Part shown: positions 1 through 9,145 of the stretch, one piece after another
Layout of the letters: every line of letters starts with the position of its first letter
Position numbering within the stretch: the stretch's first letter is position 1
Assembly: GCA_001313065.1 (NCBI GenBank)
Contig: BBFD01000165.1
Span: 1 to 9,145 of the forward strand
Source of the DNA: Silvimonas sp. JCM 19000
Lineage (GTDB): Bacteria; Pseudomonadota; Gammaproteobacteria; Burkholderiales; Chitinibacteraceae
Direction of reading: 5' to 3'
Length of the DNA stretch: 9,145 nt
The notes under the pieces: model-generated
What the model was told of the DNA's origin: nothing
Seen by the model: only the letters and a program-made list of their open reading frames with translations
Database searches by the model: none
Translations under genes and position numbers: made by a program

Positions 1-159
1 CATGGCGCCCGTGGCCCGGCGATTGCTGTAGTTGGCAGCTATGAAGCCGCTGGGCCTTCTGAGACAATAATGCGCGTCAAGGTTTCAGCAATGCTGCAAC
101 AGCCTGATACAGACCGGGCGGTGCTCTTGCGCACCCCTACTTACTTTTCTTATGGTTAG
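1..159 (+). CDS. Possible C-terminal tail of an upstream gene (uncertain)
   Basis: A reading frame is open from the left edge to a TAG at 157-159, about 52 codons, ending nine bases before the rfbB start. Its tail reads RTPTYFSYG. I recognise no family. Codon use is only moderately like that of the genes downstream, and the last 30 bases are AT-richer, as an intergenic leader would be. The close spacing to rfbB would suit an upstream operon member, but the region could equally be a non-coding leader. Frames in this window are often broken, so the absence of a longer match means little. No promoter or terminator here is convincing. Confidence 0.3.
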   Translation, partial: HGARGPAIAVVGSYEAAGPSETIMRVKVSAMLQQPDTDRAVLLRTPTYFSYG

Positions 160-168
160 AGTAAACAA

Positions 169-1232
169 ATGATTCTGGTGACTGGTGGTGCCGGCTTTAT
201 CGGCGGCAATTTCGTGCTGGACTGGCTTGCGCAAAGCGACGAGCCCGTCATCAACGTCGACAAGCTCACGTACGCCGGAAACACCGACACGCTCAAATCG
301 CTGGACGGCCATCCGGGGCATGTTTTTTTGTCCGCGCGGATATCGGCGACCGCGCCGTACTTGGCCAGCTGCTGGCCGAACATCGTCCGCGTGCCGTGAT
401 CAACTTTGCGGCCGAATCGCATGTCGACCGCTCCATCAGTGGCCCCGGCGAATTTATCCAGACCAATGTGGTGGGCACCTTCAATCTGCTGGAAGCCGTG
501 CGCGCGTACTGGACTGATCTGCCCGCCGACGACAAAGCCGCCTTCCGCTTTCTGCATGTCTCTACGGATGAGGTGTATGGCACGCTGAGCGCTACCGACG
601 CCCCGTTCGCCGAAACCAACCGCTACGAACCCAACAGCCCGTACTCCGCGTCCAAGGCCGCGTCCGACCACCTGGTCCGCGCCTGGCACCACACCTACGG
701 GCTGCCGGTGTTGACCACCAATTGCTCCAACAACTACGGCCCGTATCACTTTCCGGAAAAGCTGATCCCGCTGGTCATCCTGAATGCGCTGGCGGGCAAG
801 CCGCTGCCGATTTATGGCGATGGCCAGCAAATCCGCGACTGGCTGTACGTCAAAGACCATTGCTCCGCCATCCGCCGCGTGCTGCAAGACGGCAGGCTGG
901 GCGAGACCTACAACGTGGGTGGCTGGAATGAAAAAAAAGCCAATCTTGATGTGGTCAACACCATTTGTTCCATCCTGGACCAGATCAAACCGCGCGCTGA
1001 TGGTGCGGCCTATGCCAGCCAGATTACCTATGTGCAAGACCGCCCCGGCCATGACCGGCGCTATGCCATTGATGCGCGCAAGCTGGAACGCGAACTGGGC
1101 TGGAAACCGGCCGAGACGTTTGAAACCGGCATCCGCAAAACCGTGCAGTGGTATCTGGACCACCAGGACTGGGTGAACAACGTAAGCAGCGGCGCGTATC
1201 GCGACTGGGTGGCGCAACAATATGGCCAGTGA
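169..1232 (+). CDS. rfbB: dTDP-glucose 4,6-dehydratase RfbB/RmlB (frameshifted as given)
   Basis: This is the second enzyme of dTDP-L-rhamnose synthesis. It converts dTDP-D-glucose to dTDP-4-keto-6-deoxy-D-glucose with bound NAD+, in the cytoplasm. The extended-SDR Rossmann motif [10 protein letters not shown] is at residues 5-14. STDEVYG (131-137) carries the Thr-Asp-Glu catalytic trio, and Y158-x3-K162 (YSASK) is the SDR active-site pair. Reconstructed length is about 353 aa, normal for RmlB. The frame breaks at the T7 run 323-329: the first part starts at ATG 169 and the rest runs in another frame to TGA 1230-1232. Reading the run as T5 (or T8) restores [19 protein letters not shown]. An A8 run at 931-938 stays in frame but adds a residue in the NEKKANLD segment, where homologues usually have NEKxN. 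The start has only a weak ribosome site. The end overlaps rfbD by 11 bases. Confidence 0.95.
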
Positions 1233-2134
1233 TCTGCCTCTGATTCTGGTCACCGGCAAGACGGGCCAGGTGGGTTTTGAACTGCAACGCAGTCTGGCCG
1301 TACTCGGCCAGGTGGTGGCGCTGGATCGCCACGAGTGCGATCTGTCGCAGCCGGAGGCTTTGCGCGCCTTATCCAGCGCTTGCAGCCTGATGTGATCGTC
1401 AATCCGGCGGCCTATACCGCCGTCGACAAAGCCGAAACCGATCAGGCGGCCGCGCAAGCCATCAATGGCAGCGCGCCCGGCGTGCTGGCCGAAGAAGCGG
1501 CAAAGCTGAATGCGCTGCTGGTGCATTACTCCACCGATTATGTGTTTGCGGGCGACGACCAGAGCGAGCCCTATGCCGAAGACGCGGCCACCGCGCCGCG
1601 TTCGGTGTATGGCCAGACCAAGCTGGCTGGCGAAGCAGCCATCCGCGCCGCCCACGCCCGCCATCTGATCCTGCGCACCAGTTGGGTGTATGGCGCGCAC
1701 GGCGCCAATTTTCTGAAGACGGCGTTACGTCTGGTGCAGGAGCGCGACGCGCTCAAGATTGTCGCCGACCAGATCGGCGCCCCGACGGCGGCCAGCCTGA
1801 TCGCCGACGTGACGGCGCAGCTGGTGGCGCAATATCTGCATGCCGAAGAACCGGCGGCGTATCCGTATGGCACCTATCACCTTGCAGCCGCTGGCGAAAC
1901 CAGCTGGCATGGCTATGCCCGCCATGTGGCCGAAATGGCGCAACAGGCGGGTGTGACGCTCAAAGCCACGCCCGAGCGGATTGAAGCCATCCCGACCAGC
2001 GCCTACCCGCTACCCGCGCCGCGGCCCGCTAATTCACGGCTGGATACCACGCGGCTGCGCGAGACCTTTGGCCTGACGCTGCGCCGTGGCAACAAGGCGT
2101 GGAACAGGTGCTGACGCTGTTGCTGCGTCGCTAA
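1222..2134 (+). CDS. rfbD: dTDP-4-dehydrorhamnose reductase RfbD/RmlD (two frameshifts as given)
   Basis: This enzyme does the last step of dTDP-L-rhamnose synthesis, NAD(P)H reduction of the 4-keto group. The start ATG 1222 lies inside the end of rfbB and gives [18 protein letters not shown], with a GxxGxxG nucleotide-binding motif near residues 11-18. STDYVF (about 104-109) and Y130-x3-K134 (YGQTK) form the SDR active site. LRTSWVYG and ADQIGAPT are further RmlD family motifs. Two single-base losses break it. One C is missing at 1367-1368, where restoring CCC gives [21 protein letters not shown]. One C is missing near 2082, where restoring it gives [15 protein letters not shown], the usual RmlD C-terminus, ending at TAA 2132-2134. 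The reconstructed protein is about 304 aa, normal for the family. As written, the first frame stops at 1395. Confidence 0.94.
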
Positions 2135-2139
2135 CGCTC

Positions 2140-2144
2140 AAGGA
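2140..2144 (+). promoter_or_regulatory. Ribosome binding site for rfbA
   Basis: AAGGA lies eight bases before ATG 2153. It is a clear Shine-Dalgarno site and fixes the rfbA start. It sits in the 18-base gap after the reconstructed rfbD stop. Confidence 0.7.
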
Positions 2145-2152
2145 ACAAGACG

Positions 2153-3039
2153 ATGAATCGTAAAGGCATTATCCTGGCTGGCGGCTCCGGCACCCGCCTG
2201 TATCCGGCCACCCTGGCGGTATCAAAACAACTGCTGCCCATCTATGACAAACCGATGATTTATTACCCGCTCAGCGCGCTGATGCTGGCGGGTATCCGTG
2301 AAATTCTGGTGATCTCCACCCCGCAAGACACGCCGCGCTTTGAACAATTGCTGGGCGACGGCAGCCAGTGGGGCATCCGGCTGCAGTACGCGGTGCAGGC
2401 CAGCCCGGACGGCCTGGCGCAGGCGTTTATCATTGGCGAACAGTTCATCGGCGATGACGACTGCGCACTGGTGCTGGGCGACAATATTTTCTACGGCCAC
2501 GACTTTGCCGAGCTGCTGCAAAACGCCGCCGCCAAACCGTCGGGCGCTACGGTCTTTGCCTATCGTGTGCATGATCCGGAACGCTACGGCGTGGTGGAAT
2601 TTGACGCCGAAGGCCATGCGCTCAGCCTGGAAGAAAAGCCCGCCGAGCCCAAATCCAACTACGCGGTGACTGGTTTGTATTTCTATGACAACAAAGTCGT
2701 GGAGATTGCCAAATCGATCAAACCGTCACCGCGCGGCGAGCTGGAAATCACCGACGTCAACGCGGCGTATCTGAGCGCGGGCCAGCTCGATGTGCAGACC
2801 ATGGGCCGTGGCTACGCCTGGCTGGACACCGGCACGCATGAATCGATGCTGGAAGCCAGCCAGTTCATTCATACCATCGAAGACCGCCAGGGCCTCAAAG
2901 TGTGCTGCCCGGAAGAAATCGCCTTTCGCTCGGGCTGGGTGAGCGCCGCCGAGATCGAACGCCTGGCGCAACCCCTCAAGAAAAAAAACGGCTACGGCCA
3001 GTACCTGCTGCGCATGCTCAAGGAAAAGGTTTTTTTTAA
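2153..3039 (+). CDS. rfbA: Glucose-1-phosphate thymidylyltransferase RfbA/RmlA (3' end frameshifted)
   Basis: This is the first enzyme of the rhamnose pathway: dTTP plus glucose-1-phosphate gives dTDP-glucose and pyrophosphate. The nucleotidyltransferase signature GGSGTRLYP is at residues 10-18, with K25 in [27 protein letters not shown] (about 108-115) holds the metal-binding Asp. [15 protein letters not shown] and KNGYGQYLL are characteristic of long RmlA. The body is open from 2153 to about 3029. The T8 run at 3030-3037 then removes the natural stop and the written frame runs on into rfbC until 3145. Reading T6 (or T9) puts TAA at 3037-3039, giving a protein of 294-295 aa that ends KEKVF and overlaps the rfbC ATG as TAATG. 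An in-frame A8 at 2981-2988 gives LKKKNGYG where homologues often have one residue fewer. Confidence 0.95.
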
Positions 3040-3585
3040 TGAACGTGATCGACACCGCCATCCCGGACGTCAAGATCATCGAACCGCAAGTGTTCGGCGA
3101 CGACCGTGGTTTCTTCTACGAAAGTTTCAACCAACAACGCTTTGATGCCGCCATTGGCCGCCCGGTGCAGTTTGTGCAAGACAACCACTCGCGCTCCGCC
3201 CGTGGCGTACTGCGTGGGCTGCATTATCAGATTGAACATCCGCAAGGCAAACTGGTGCGCGTAGTGGCGGGCGAGGTCTACGACGTGGCCGTCGATATGC
3301 GTCAATCCTCGGCCACCTTTGGTCAGTGGGTGGGTGTGACGCTGAGCGCGGAAAACAAACGCCAGCTGTGGGTGCCGGAAGGCTTTGCACATGGTTTTGT
3401 GGTGACCTCGGATTACGCCGAGTTCTTGTACAAGACCACGGATTACTGGTTTAAAGAACACGAACGCAGTGTGCTGTGGTCGGACCCGACGCTGGCCATC
3501 AACTGGCCGCTGGACGGGGCGCCGGCGTTGTCGGCGAAAGATGCCGCTGCCGCACTGTGGCAAAAACGCCGAGGTGTTTGCGTAA
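3039..3585 (+). CDS. rfbC: dTDP-4-dehydrorhamnose 3,5-epimerase RfbC/RmlC (3' end frameshifted)
   Basis: This enzyme epimerises C3 and C5 of dTDP-4-keto-6-deoxyglucose, between RmlB and RmlD in the pathway. It is a cupin-fold protein. Visible motifs are [13 protein letters not shown] (about 19-31), [10 protein letters not shown] with the catalytic His at 62, [22 protein letters not shown], and the active-site Tyr at about 131 in FLYKTTDYW. An A5 run at 3562-3566 should probably be A4. That gives LWQNAEVFA and a TAA at 3583-3585, for a normal-sized protein of 181 aa. As written, the frame skips this stop and reads into wzm as far as 3725. The start sits about ten bases after AAGG at the end of rfbA. 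The stop overlaps the wzm start (TAATG), which suggests translational coupling. Confidence 0.95.
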
Positions 3586-4405
3586 TGCTGCAATTTTCGG
3601 CGTCACCCCTTGAGTTGCCGCGTGGGCTCTGGCGGCACCGGGGGCTGGTCGGGGCGTTGATCCAGCGCGAGGTCGTCGGCCGTTATCGCGGTTCCGCGAT
3701 GGGCTTGTTGTGGTCGTTTTTTTAATCCGGTGTTCATGCTCTCGGTCTACACCTTTGTCTTCAGCGAAGTGTTCAAAGCGCGCTGGAGCGGTGCCAGCGG
3801 CGCGAAATCAGAATTCGCCCTGATCCTGTTTGCCGGGCTGATGGTGTTCAACCTGTTTGCCGAGTGCATCAACCGCGCCCCAACCCTGGTGCTGGCCAAC
3901 CCCAACTATGTGAAGAAGGTGATCTTTCCGCTGGAAATGCTGCCCTGGGTAAGCCTGGGCGCCGCCTTTTTTTCATATGTTGATCAGCTTTGTGGTGTGG
4001 CTGTTTTTCTACTTGATTTGCCGTGGTATTCCGCCCGCCACCATCTGGTTGCTGCCGCTGGTGATTGCGCCCTTGCTGCTGTTTACGCTGGGTGTCTCCT
4101 GGGCGTTGGCGGCTTTGGGTGTTTATTTGCGCGATATCGCCCAGGTGACGGCCTTGCTGACCACGGTCTTGATGTTCATGTCGCCGATTTTTTATCCGGC
4201 ATCTTCTTTGCCGCCTGAATACCGCGCGTTGCTCAACCTGAACCCGCTGGTGCCTATCATCGAGCAAGCGCGCAACGTCATGCTGTGGGGCCAGGGGCCC
4301 GCGTGGTCGATGCTGGCCGTGCAGTATGTGGCGGCCGTGGTAGTGGCGTGTATCGGTTTTGCCTGGTTTCAGAAAACCAGAAAAGGATTTGCAGATGTCC
4401 TCTGA
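3585..4405 (+). CDS. wzm: ABC-2 type polysaccharide export permease Wzm (two frameshifts)
   Basis: This is the membrane subunit of the ABC exporter that moves lipid-linked polysaccharide across the inner membrane. The start ATG 3585 gives [14 protein letters not shown], followed by the family N-terminus LIQREVVGRYRGSAMGLLW. About six hydrophobic segments follow: around NPVFMLSVYTFVF; FALILFAGLMVFNLF; MLISFVVWLFFYLI; LPLVIAPLLLFTLGVSWALA; LLTTVLMFMSPIFYP; and LAVQYVAAVVVACIGFAWF. RDIAQ and NPLVPIIEQAR are typical of the family. Two T7 runs, 3717-3723 and 3967-3973, each carry one T too many. T6 restores LLWSFFNPVF and GAAFFHMLISF. The reconstructed protein is about 272 aa, normal for Wzm. The TGA at 4403-4405 overlaps the wzt start by 11 bases, as expected for partner subunits. 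Confidence 0.93.
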
Positions 4406-5658
4406 ACCCGCCATCAAGGTCGAGAACGTCGGCAAGTGCTATCACATTTATGAACGCCCGCGCGATCGCCTGCTGCAGATGCTGGCGCGCGGCCGTAAGC
4501 AGTTTTTTTCGCGAGTTCTGGGCCGTTAATGGCGTGTCGTTCCAGATCGGCAAAGGCGAGACCGTCGGCATCCTCGGGCGCAACGGCAGCGGTAAATCCA
4601 CGCTGCTGCAAATGATCTGCGGCACGCTTAATCCAACCATGGGCCAGATCAGCGCGCATGGCCGCATCGCCGCCTTGCTCGAACTGGGCTCGGGGTTTAA
4701 CCCGGACTTTACCGGCGCGAAAATGTGTTCATGTATGGCAATTTGCTGGGCATGAGCCGCCAGGAAATTACCGCCCGCTACGATGCCATCGCCGAATTTG
4801 CCGATATCGGTGATTTTATCGATCAGCCGGTCAAGACTTATTCCAGCGGGATGATGGTGCGGCTGGCGTTTGCCGTGCAGGTGCAAGTCGATCCGGACAT
4901 TCTGATCGTGGACGAGGCGCTGGCCGTGGGCGATGCCGGTTTTCAGCTCAAATGCATGTTGCGTATGCGCGAGCTGCAGGAGCGTGGCGTCACCATTTTG
5001 TTTGTGTCGCATGACACCGGCAGCATCATCCGGCTGTGCGACCGGGCCATACTGCTCGACCATGGTCAGTTGCTGGTGGACAGTGATGACCCACTCGCGG
5101 TGGTCAAACAATATGAAACCCTGACCCGCGCGGGCGTGGCGCCGGTGGCAACACCGGCACAAGTGGTGCCCCAGGTCACGGTCGATTATCAGGCCGAGCT
5201 GCAGGGCATCAGCGAAACCCGGCTGGGTACGCGTGAAGCTGAATATCTTGGCGTAGATTTTCTGGGCGATGATGGCAAACCACGCCAGGTCTACCAGGCG
5301 GGTGATGTGCTGGAAATTCGCGCCACCATCCACAGCCATAAATCGTTTGCGCGCGTGGTGAGTGGTTTTACCTTGAAAAAACAAGGCCGGCGTAGACGTC
5401 TGGGGCGATAACAACCTGTATGCCGGGATAGATCTGGCATTAAGCCCGGGCAAACATACACTGGCTTATCGGTTTGTTTTGAACGTGCCTGCGGGCGAAT
5501 ATTTTCTGTATATCGGCCTGGCCGATATCTCGGGCAATCGCATCGAACTTGACCAGCGTTGGCCGATACGAAAACTTACCGTTGTGTCAAAACGCCAGGT
5601 GCTTGGTTACGTATACTCACCGGCAAATATCGAATTAAAACCGGTCACTCCGGCGTAG
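4395..5658 (+). CDS. wzt: Polysaccharide ABC exporter ATPase Wzt with C-terminal glycan-recognition domain (three frameshifts)
   Basis: This is the ATPase partner of Wzm, cytoplasmic and membrane-associated. The start ATG 4395 gives MSSEPAIKVENVGKCYHIYE. Walker A GRNGSGKS is at about 61-68, the ABC signature YSSGMMVRL at 149-157, Walker B ILIVDE at 169-174 and the H-loop His at 206. After a linker, residues about 270-420 match the Wzt C-terminal carbohydrate-binding type, with SETRLGTREAEYLGVDFL, VSGFTLKNKAGVDVWGDNN and VPAGEYFLYIGL. In characterised systems this domain recognises a terminal modification on the finished chain. Breaks: T7 at 4503-4509 should be T6 (QFFREFWAVNG). One base is missing at about 4719-4723; restoring it gives TGAENVFMYG (or TGAKNVFMYG). 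A6 at 5376-5381 should be A5 (LKNKAGVDV). The reconstructed protein is about 420 aa, ending at TAG 5656-5658. Confidence 0.93.
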
Positions 5659-5680
5659 TTCAGCACTACATGAGGGTTAA

Positions 5681-5697
5681 GACCGCGCGCGGCGGTC
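5681..5697 (+). other. Small GC-rich hairpin in the wzt-cytidylyltransferase gap
   Basis: GACCGC at 5681-5686 pairs perfectly with GCGGTC at 5692-5697 around a five-base GCGCG loop. It lies in the 72-base gap between the wzt stop and the next start, the longest gap in the operon. Only a T4 tract follows, eight bases downstream, so it is not a canonical intrinsic terminator. It could be an attenuator, an mRNA-stability element, or chance in GC-rich DNA. Confidence 0.3.
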
Positions 5698-5720
5698 GCC
5701 CCGGTTTTGCCTCATTTTGT

Positions 5721-5725
5721 GGAGA
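5721..5725 (+). promoter_or_regulatory. Ribosome binding site selecting a GTG start
   Basis: GGAGA lies five bases before GTG 5731. No ATG is suitably placed at this N-terminus. Translation from the GTG begins MVNIIAFVPAKGSS, exactly where cytidylyltransferases begin, so this site decides the start over the in-frame TTG (5707) and GTG (5719) upstream. Confidence 0.65.
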
Positions 5726-5730
5726 TCAGA

Positions 5731-7023
5731 GTGGTCAATATCATTGCCTTCGTGCCGGCCAAAGGGTCGAGCGACCGTATTCAGAACAAGAATCTGCGCG
5801 TACTGGACGGCGAGTATCTGTTCAAGCGCAAGCTGCGCCAGCTGTTGCAGTGTGACCGGATTACCGAGGTCGTGCTGGATACCGACAGCGATGAGATCGC
5901 ACACCTTGCCTCTGATTTGCCGGTCAGCCGCCTGCAGCGCCCCGCCGATCTGGCCAGCAACGCCACCGATGGGCACGAACTGTTTGCCTGGGAATGCAGC
6001 CAGCGCACGGCCGACTTGTATGTGCAGGCCTTGTGTACTGCGCCCTTTGTCGATGCCGATACGCTTAACCGTGCGATAGACGCCCTGCTGGCTAGCCCGG
6101 AGCACGACTCGCTGGTCGCGGTCACCCAGGGCAAACAGTACACCTGGAAAGACGGCAATCCGGAGTACGGCCGCGGCCGCATTCCTAACAGCGTGGACCT
6201 GCCGGCGGTCACCATCGAGGCCATGTCGCTCTACATCGTGCGTGCTCGGTGCTGACCTCGGGCAAGCGCTTTGGCAGCAAACCGCTGATGTTTGTGCTGA
6301 ACCCCACCGAAGTCGTGGACGTGAACTGGCCTGAAGATCTACAACTGGCCGAAACCATCGCAGCGGGCGCGCGTGCGCGCGAAAACCTGGCGTTGGGCGC
6401 GCTGTTTCCGTATCTGACTTCGTCGATGCTGGCCGATATCACGCGTGAAATGGGGCACAACTTTGTGCTGCCCAAAGAAATCATGGGTGGCGGGCGCTTT
6501 TTTTGGGCGGGCCAAAACCTTGCTGCTGGATCGTCCCAACGAGAACGAATCGTGGCAGGGCATTTATGACGCGCTCGACACTTATCAGTTTGTGCGTCCG
6601 GGCGATGTGATCATGGTGGAAAACCGGGTGCCTGATCATGCTTACTTCGGCAACCTGAACGCCCAGCTCGCCATGCGCGCGGGCGCGGTAGGCGCCGTGG
6701 TGGATGGTGTTACCCGCGACAAATACGATGTCGCCAAGCTCGATTTTCCGGTGTTTGCACGCGGCCATTATTGCGTGGACATCAAATTTGAAGGCACGAC
6801 GCGCGCGATGAACATGCCGATCACCATCGGCAACGTCACGGTCAAGAATGGCGATTTCATTTTCGCCGACGGCGATGGCGTGGTGGCGATTCCTGAGCAG
6901 CTCTGGCCTGAGATCAAGGATCTGGCGCTCAAAGGCATCGAAAAAGAATGGCGGGTGGGTATGGCGGTTGCGCTAGGTATTGCGCCCAAAGAAATTTTTT
7001 TTACCCGTCACGGGGAATTCTGA
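5731..7023 (+). CDS. Fused acylneuraminate cytidylyltransferase / RraA-like (HMG-aldolase family) protein (two frameshifts)
   Basis: Residues 1 to about 210 form a CMP-sugar synthetase-like domain. The nucleotide-binding segment FVPAKGSSDRIQNKNLRVLDG is at 7-27, LDTDSDEIA at 49-57, QRPADLASNATD at 69-80, YVQALCTAPFVDADTL at 97-112, and the late metal-site motif VVDVNWPEDLQLAE at 195-208. Residues about 222-430 form an RraA / HMG-CHA aldolase-like domain. Its motifs are YLTSSMLADI, PGDVIMVENRVPDHAYFGNL, AVVDGVTRD with the conserved Arg-Asp pair at 329-330, VFARGHY and FADGDGVVAIP. The inter-domain linker lies in one uninterrupted stretch (about 6249-6497), so the fusion does not depend on a correction. 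Breaks: one C lost at 6245 (RASVLTSGK restored), and T7 at 6498-6504 for T6 (GGGRFFGRAKTLLL). Reconstructed length is 430 aa. The substrate is unknown; Neu5Ac, legionaminic or pseudaminic acid, or a Kdo-like acid are all possible. The aldolase activity is family-based inference, since other RraA proteins are RNase E regulators. Confidence 0.85.
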
Positions 7024-7027
7024 AGTA

Positions 7028-9145
7028 ATGAACATCCTGTTTTATGTGGAGCCGTTGGTCGAGCGCGACAATCCGCTCTGGAAGAAAGGGTGGCTCCTCG
7101 ATTTTATGCACCGCATGGTGTCGAGCCTGAGCACGGCCGACACCCAGGCGCATGAATTCGCCTGCATCACCGGTAGCGCCTCGGGGCGACGGCGCGCCAG
7201 GTCCTGGGCCAGAGCCGCGTCGCAACGATAGGGCAAACCGAGCTGATTCCGGCGTTTGGCGCCAATGCGCTGGACGCCGCATCACGCTGGTATCTGGGCC
7301 AGAACGACGCCGCCACCACAGACGCGATGGCTGCGCTGATCAAGCGCAAACTCGGCGGCTATGTGCCGGATGTCTGCATCACGTTTTCACCCGCGCCGTT
7401 CTTGCAAACTGCATTCCCGCAAAGTCAGACCTTCCACTTTGAACTGGGCATGATTTCGCGCCCGCCGTTTCCGGAAACCATTTATCTAGACCCGTGCGGC
7501 ATGTTCTCGGCCGGGATGTTGGGTAAGTTTGCGGAGCAGATCAGAGCGCACACGGCGTCGGCCGAAGCGGAGCAAATCGTACGCCTGATCCGCGAGCGTT
7601 ATTGCACCGCCCGCGCTGATCAAAGCAACCCGGTTTACCCCTATGTGGCCGATATCATCGCGCGCTTTCAGTCCGCTATTTTATTGCCGCTGCAGTTCTC
7701 CAGTTTTTTTATGCTTACGACGCCAATGCGACGTACAAAGACCAGTACGACTTGCTGATCAATGTGCTCGAGGCCACGCCGCGTGATGTGGCCGTGGTGG
7801 TCTGTGAGCATCCGGAATACGAAATCTTGCGCGCCGATCTGATCGAGCATCTGACGGTGCGCTACCCCAACTTTGTCTGGCATCCGATGTTCCGGGTGGT
7901 GTACGGCACTTCGCATTACCTGATGCCATTTGTGCAGGGCGTGGTATCGGTCAGCTCCAGCGTGGGCTTGCAAGCGATGTTGTGGCAAAAGCCGCTGGCG
8001 GTGTTGGGGCATAGCCATCTCGACGTGGCCGCAGATGGCCACGATATTCCGGCGTTGTTGCACGCAATGGTGGCACCGTGGCCGCAGCGCAAAGAGAATG
8101 TGCTGGCCTGGATCTTGTCGCGCTTCCACCTGCCATCCGCCTTGTTGTTGCAGCCCCGCATCCTTGAGGCCTGGCTGGCGCAGGTGCGTGCCAGTACGTT
8201 TGAGCAATTCAATGCTACCGAGCTCAGCGCCGGACTGCGCGACGACACCGTGTTGGCCTGGTATCAAGAGGCCAGCAATTCGGGCTGGTTGTCGCCCAAA
8301 TCAAGCACCAACAAGCTTCCGCGCGGATATTTTTTTTGCCGCGCTGTATTTTGCGACCACCGAGGAAAGCTTTAACGAGTTGAACTGCGTACGCAGCTTT
8401 GGCCAATGGGGCGCTGAACCTTCGGTGATCGAGTTCCAGTTACCCGCAGTGCCATTCACTGCACTGCGGCTGGACCCGGTAGCGCAACCCGACATGCTGA
8501 TGCTGAGTGAACTGCAACTCAGCGACGCCACGGGCCAGCCGGTGTGGCAGTGGGATCGCACCGAGAACGGTCTGGGCGCCCTGGTCAATATCGTGAGCGT
8601 GCCGGTGCTGGAACAGCGTGGCCTGTTATTGCAATGCGATAACGATGATCCACAGATTTTTTCCAGCAATCGATGCCGCCACCTTAGCCGCCGCAGCCAT
8701 GCCGCTGAAATTGCGCGCGGTGTATGCCAAGGCGGGCATCGGGGTGCTGCGCTACAACAGCCGCGCCATGATGACGGCCATTGCCGAAGCGAACCTGCGC
8801 TGCCAGCAACTGGAAGCCGACCGCGAAAAGCTGGTGCTGGCCAACAAGATCCAGTTAAAGAAAATTGCTGAAAACGAAGGCCTGTTGGCTCGTTTCAAGA
8901 AGGAAAAAAAGAAGTCATGTCACAGCGCCTTGGCGAGCAGAACAAATTACTGGGCCAGCGCGAAGCAAGCACATCCGATCTGGCCACCGAGATCAACACC
9001 CTCAAGCATGAAATCGCGGCCTTGCGTGGTTCCACCAGTTGGCGCGTTGCCGCGCCGGTGCGTTGGGTGGGCGCCGCCTTTGGCGGCAGTTCGCCGCTGC
9101 GCAAAGGCCGGGTCGCGTTGTATGTGGGCGCTGCCCGTCGCGGCG
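7028..9145 (+). CDS. Large multidomain capsule-synthesis-like protein with coiled coil, runs off window (five frameshifts)
   Basis: The start ATG 7028 gives MNILFYVEPLVERDNPLW, four bases after the previous stop. About 705 residues are reconstructed before the right edge. Residues about 210-345 resemble the capsule polysaccharide synthesis family that includes the Kdo transferases KpsC/KpsS: ILLPLQ (218-223), VVVCEHPEY (256-264) and VSVSSSVGLQAMLWQKPLAVLG (306-327). Residues about 432-545 look like a beta-rich module with FFAALYFATTEESFNE and TALRLDPVAQPDM, of a kind I associate with large glycosyltransferases. Residues about 585-665 are a charged heptad-like coiled coil. GSTSWRVAAPVRWVG (667-681) matches a motif common near glycosyltransferase domains. 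Breaks: G4 at 7183-7186 (G5); T7 at 7704-7710 (T5 or T8); T8 at 8330-8337 (T7); T6 at 8657-8662 (T5); A7 at 8904-8910 (A8 or A5). I see no in-frame stop between the domains, but with this many breaks two genes cannot be excluded. Function is inferred to be glycan chain synthesis or termination. Confidence 0.72.

Follow-up and report, generated by a model that had tools for sequence, protein, structure and literature searches.

In the pathways known to us, the synthases that form ulosonic acids, such as Kdo and the sialic acids, depend on phosphoenolpyruvate (PEP). The locus considered here is a surface-sugar gene cluster of the soil bacterium Silvimonas sp. JCM 19000, contained in a stretch of 9,145 nucleotides (contig BBFD01000165.1; hereafter, the window), in which one gene combines a cytidine monophosphate (CMP)-sugar-activating enzyme with a pyruvate-aldolase-like enzyme. 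It is like the loci of the WbbB O-antigen polymerase/terminator (Raoultella terrigena and Klebsiella O12) in its overall plan and in the module order, GT99 fold, HP motif, Gln, and Glu of the gene next to the fusion; unlike them, it has no nucleophile Asp in that gene's GT99-like domain, and next to that gene lies one dedicated to CMP-sugar formation that also encodes an aldolase domain. Compared with NeuA-type synthetases, the N-terminal domain of the fusion has about 20% identity, an attached RraA domain, Asn-Ser at the carboxylate-binding Arg region, and Asn in place of the second metal Asp. Compared with LigK/PcmE and RraA-like proteins, the C-terminal domain usually reads N-X20-R-D-X2-(D/E), offers no match to the catalytic Asn-71/Lys-147, and falls far short of the LigK/PcmE and RraA cut-offs. 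The joining of RraA to a metabolic enzyme is shared with PRK07028 (hexulose-6-phosphate synthase-RraA) and PRK12764 (FAH-RraA), the best-scoring equivalogs after PRK06201 and PRK08245; however, the partner in the fusion is a nucleotidyltransferase, and its scores against both models are far below cut-off.

The two-domain fusion is a real and widespread pairing. An earlier note, made from the letters of the window, had named both domains and placed them in one protein, and both claims were borne out. PF02348 (CTP_transf_3) matched positions 5731-6252 at 57.2 bits (cut-off, 22.6) and PF03737 (RraA-like) matched positions 6493-7020 at 93.4 bits (cut-off, 24.5); the corresponding scores were 52.0 and 94.1 bits for the intact relative in Amantichitinum ursilacus IGB-41 (Neisseriales, Chitinibacteraceae; locus L001), where the gene is one frame of 429 amino acids (aa) with a GTG start. 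A homologue search with this relative found 765 proteins, and both Pfam domains were present, at near-full query coverage, in 120 of the 120 matches listed. Sources among these included Silvimonas, Methylomonas, Yersinia frederiksenii, Rhodopseudomonas, and Delftia, and the JGI annotation just names both domains. Further genomes held intact fusions at 70% (L008) and 42% (L009 and L010) identity, and 34 IMG/VR contigs, several with T4-like core genes recognised by eye, held viral fusions at about 43 to 51% identity, with both domains in a single open reading frame (ORF) in all 83 locus records, which repeat the 34 contigs. The homologues are not invariably two separate genes, which the earlier note had named as a refuting outcome.

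Within the window, the gene is split over three frames, with shifts near 6248 and near 6500 and then a return to the first frame; the linker is open in a single frame, as had been noted, here from 6249 to 6569, but no one frame crosses the whole gene. Sequencing errors most likely account for these breaks, because the alignment with A. ursilacus, the closest isolate (82% DNA identity across window positions 21-9145), contained 31 gaps, of which 28 were not a multiple of three, many of them at homopolymers and scattered along the whole window, where most genes are frame-broken. The three pieces matched the Silvimonas sp. JCM 19000 protein P0004 (429 aa) at 99.4% (172 aa), 94.5% (91 aa, residues 174-264), and 98.9% (176 aa). 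The fusion was rare and patchy in genome samples of unstated completeness, occurring in 4 of 369 genomes (class-level sample), 2 of 398 (both among those four), 1 of 399, and 1 of 53. Searches by tblastn found no fusion in plasmids (E 1e-25) or in deposited phage genomes (E 1e-8), nor did blastn find one in E. coli genomes; PHROGs gave no match for two of the phage fusions or for three phage proteins related to them. The pairing seems undescribed in print: the open-licence literature searched yielded no paper with both RraA and cytidylyltransferase and none recognised, by title and abstract, as describing the fusion.

The product is likely a CMP-activated acidic ketose (CMP-ulosonate) for chain-end transfer, because genes that adjoin the fusion in one locus or another encode GT99-like, MptE-like, or GT29-like transferases. 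The best structural matches of the N-terminal domain of the intact relative were NeuA-type CMP-Kdn/CMP-Neu5Ac synthetases (PDB 9t4z, 6ifd, 1eyr, and 1qwj), and this fold, the neighbouring transferases, and the type of locus together support the CMP-ulosonate role that the first half had been given. The CMP-Kdo synthetase models PRK05450/PRK13368 (KdsB) gave at best 38.5 bits on the intact domain, against a cut-off of 193, and the pseudaminic acid cytidylyltransferase model TIGR03584 (PseF) gave 63.8 bits, against 205.7. A KdsB serving the housekeeping CMP-Kdo pool was rejected, because a separate full-length PF02348 gene (254-269 aa) was present in all four fusion genomes and the KdsB cut-offs were missed.

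The C-terminal domain folds like RraA-like proteins (3k4i, 5x15, and 2c5q) and the HMG/CHA aldolase LigK/PcmE (PDB 3noj). The Arg-Asp pair that the earlier note had placed at residues 329 and 330 (numbering of the intact relative) was confirmed at positions 6715-6720 of the window, and R329, D330, D350, N361, and E406 were invariant in 134 of 134 fusions; residue pairings in both domains are alignment based rather than coordinate based. The LigK/PcmE model TIGR02798 gave 62.9 bits, against a cut-off of 304.5. The RraA RNase E regulator models were likewise missed (PRK09372, 45.2 against 136 bits; TIGR02998, 32.4 against 241.25 bits), and a role as an RNase E regulator was rejected because it agrees neither with these scores nor with the locus.

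A second set of phage clusters offers an analogue. Stand-alone phage cytidylyltransferases (26 to 29% identity) lie near HpcH/HpaI aldolases, which exceeded the Pfam cut-off in all three cases tested. Like the fusion, these clusters pair a cytidylyltransferase with a pyruvate aldolase; unlike it, they use separate genes and an unrelated aldolase family with another fold, the TIM barrel. Among the 43 HpcH loci (L117-L159), a cytidylyltransferase lay within 8 kb in 40 and within 50 bp in 14. Among gmd control loci (80 of more than 600 viral ones), it was present in all 9 that also had HpcH and in 9 of the 71 that lacked it (Fisher value, 2e-7, a guide only, since phage loci are not independent and the nine HpcH-positive controls are partly on contigs of the 43). 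The HpcH loci also contained a SIS-domain gene in 32 cases and a GT29-like gene in 29, as judged with a profile two of whose three seeds came from these contigs. In L138 (6572-9651), the order is GT29-like gene (35.1 bits; cut-off, 23), cytidylyltransferase, HpcH, and a SIS-like gene recognised by eye; the aldolase scored best with HpaI, GarL, and 2-keto-3-deoxy-L-rhamnonate aldolase, all below cut-offs. HpcH and RraA were mutually exclusive, with no HpcH in the fusion loci and no RraA in the HpcH loci, and the lineages may simply differ. The HpcH clusters are candidates for a pyruvate-based ulosonate pathway with separate genes. Because HpcH/HpaI stands next to a stand-alone cytidylyltransferase where the fusion has its RraA half, they lend indirect support to the pyruvate aldol chemistry that the earlier note had proposed for that half, the putative maker of the ulosonate.

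The best explanation of the whole, in which our confidence falls just short of even, is a bifunctional enzyme of an ATP-binding cassette (ABC)-exporter-dependent O-antigen/capsule locus. The RraA-type domain would act as a metal-dependent pyruvate-enolate enzyme joining pyruvate to an aldose, supplied from outside the locus, to give a 2-keto-3-deoxy sugar acid (a ulosonic acid); by analogy, this is the best single reading of that half, nearly as likely true as false. The fusion would hand the sugar acid straight to the activating site, where the NeuA-type domain would charge it with CMP, a step of which we are rather confident. The neighbouring gene's GT99-like domain would then cap the end of a rhamnose-containing chain with the ulosonic acid, ending elongation, and the C-terminal domain of Wzt would read the cap before export; this last step is likely. 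Somewhat more tentative is the generalisation that CMP-ulosonic acids have a second, pyruvate-based route common to bacterial surface-glycan loci and their phages, in which a class II pyruvate aldolase (RraA type when fused, HpcH/HpaI type when adjacent) would dispense with PEP and GT99-like, GT29-like, and MptE-like transferases would place the acid at chain ends. If true, one protein that both makes a ulosonic acid from pyruvate and charges it with CMP would constitute a new biosynthetic route and a handy tool enzyme, the GT99-like chain terminator, as yet uncharacterised, would gain a directly testable donor, and the HpcH/HpaI clusters would carry the same question into viral glycan islands. 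Even without the aldol step, a conserved and so far unassigned two-domain family of O-antigen/capsule loci gains a testable function.

Several observations weigh against the proposal. In the N-terminal domain, the position of the carboxylate-binding Arg of NeuA is an invariant Asn-Ser in the fusions; of the two metal-binding Asp of NeuA, D197 is kept in 134 of 134, whereas 132 of 134 have Asn at the other position. In the C-terminal domain, the D-X20-R-D motif of HMG/CHA aldolases is mostly absent: the first Asp (the D102 position) is Asn in 109 of the 134 fusions, that of the window included (Asn-308, positions 6652-6654), the remainder having Asp (10), Glu (6), Ser (5), Cys (3), or Gly (1). 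The ten phage representatives of the fusion carry the motif, and 21 of the 134 fusions have neither the first Asp nor the alternative acid after R-D-X2. At the position aligned with the metal ligand E199, 113 fusions have Glu, 13 have Lys, 6 have Asp, and 2 have another residue. The metal- and pyruvate-binding residues, whose absence the earlier note had named as a refuting outcome, are kept only in part: R329 and D330 are invariant, the D102 position is mostly Asn, and the residue aligned with E199 varies. HMG/CHA aldolase needs N71 and K147, according to PMC5065237, and no Asn or Lys of the fusion matched these residues in the alignments. Furthermore, 29 of the 43 HpcH-cytidylyltransferase pairs are not adjacent, and most GT29 and MptE matches, obtained with profiles built from three sequences each, fell below the Pfam cut-offs. 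Finally, the Asp of the QXXXD motif, the nucleophile in GT99/107/140 according to PMC12887879, is absent from all 21 GT99-like relatives, being replaced by Phe (10), Tyr (9), or His (2), with the Gln kept in all 21; the GT99-like domain may therefore work by another transfer mechanism.

Next after the favoured reading, and unlikely, is that the first half activates a ulosonate from a PEP-dependent KdsA or NeuB encoded elsewhere, with the RraA half as an accessory, for example, in retro-aldol removal of a wrong or excess ulosonate or in preparation of a precursor. The loss of the acceptor-side residues of HMG/CHA aldolase agrees with this, as do NeuB-family matches in two fusion genomes (G001 and G163) and a split operon on two phage contigs (L211, 1945-5219/L240, and L241), in which GT29-like, cytidylyltransferase, RraA (with D-X20-R-D), and NeuB genes are consecutive and overlapping. 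Because stand-alone RraA and NeuB genes stand side by side there, that RraA cannot be merely a stand-in for NeuB, and RraA does not necessarily take over from the PEP-dependent synthase in the way that the earlier note had proposed. On the other side, NeuB was absent from fusion genomes G333 and G211 (completeness not given) and, within the loci, from 83 viral and 4 bacterial fusion records, KdsA not having been searched for in either set; moreover, a pyruvate-aldolase family holds the same place in the HpcH clusters, 41 of 43 of which lack NeuB (it is present in 2).

It is improbable that the RraA half dehydrates or decarboxylates a 2-keto-3-deoxy sugar acid, without an aldol step, before the altered acid is activated. 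HMG/CHA aldolase also decarboxylates oxaloacetate, as stated in PMC5065237; however, no supplier of such an acid was seen in the loci, and the HpcH/HpaI analogue fits an aldol step better. Still less probable is a noncatalytic RraA half with a role in assembly only, which would suit the variable metal ligand position and the binding of E. coli RraA to the RNA degradosome (also stated in PMC5065237), but the five residues invariant in all fusions exceed the needs of a scaffold, and a free-standing RraA partner exists. That two separate genes merely look fused, owing to the two frame changes within the window, is already refuted and in practice excluded by the intact frames in L001, L008, L009, L010, and the 83 viral records and by the 120 listed homologues.

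The window runs from rmlB, rmlD, rmlA, and rmlC through a Wzm/Wzt-type exporter and the fusion gene to the 5' part of a large gene for a glycosyltransferase (Table 1). The rml matches fall in ORFs 396-1229, 1335-2111, 2153-3142, and 3039-3722, and the order is intact in L001. The exporter genes gave KpsM/Wzm-type NCBIfam matches and a Wzt_C match (PF14524) of 30.5 bits (cut-off, 30.4), and they are intact in L001 (6988-9139). In the structural model of the intact relative, the linking helix comprises residues 201-228.

Table 1. Features of the window and their positions
Feature	Position	Strand	Remarks
rmlB, rmlD, rmlA, rmlC (dTDP-L-rhamnose supply)	156..3593	+	Several frame-broken; limits approximate; Pfam matches
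Wzm and Wzt-like ABC exporter genes	3730..5411	+	Frames broken; approximate limits; C-terminal domain on Wzt
N-terminal cytidylyltransferase domain (NeuA-like), first frame	5731..6248	+	PF02348; GTG start at 5731 as in intact relative
Cytidylyltransferase remainder, linking helix, and RraA start, other frame	6249..6506	+	Limits approximate; ORF 6249-6569
RraA-like domain (class II pyruvate-aldolase fold), first frame again	6507..7023	+	Start approximate
Next gene, 5' part	7028..9145	+	Frame-broken in window; runs past window end

In L001, the next gene encodes 1314 aa from the matching ATG, comprising a GT99-like domain, a predicted beta-sandwich and a coiled coil (both by eye), and two GT2 domains. 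Its first domain (L001 10533-11780) has the fold of WbbB, a chain-terminating beta-Kdo transferase of family GT99; phmmer with this domain alone found nothing in the PDB, the likeness having come only through profile and fold searches. His-261 and Glu-139 were kept in all 21 GT99-like relatives, Pro-262 was kept in 20, and an Arg was also kept, in alignment-based pairings that, for the Glu, lie within a weak HMMER stretch. In addition, MptE-like genes stand next to some phage fusions, and a GT29-like gene stands next to one distant bacterial fusion.

Other cytidylyltransferase genes were observed near fusions or in phages. Close upstream of a 42%-identical fusion in genome G163 (L009 11269-11721) lies a PF01467 cytidylyltransferase-like gene that by eye resembles TagD, and a phage gene near another fusion (L032 10053-10817) joins a PF01467 cytidylyltransferase-like domain to a mannose-6-phosphate isomerase C-terminal cupin (PF01050). 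A further phage gene (L107 3682-4818) encodes a PF02348 cytidylyltransferase with a cupin domain fused at its C terminus.
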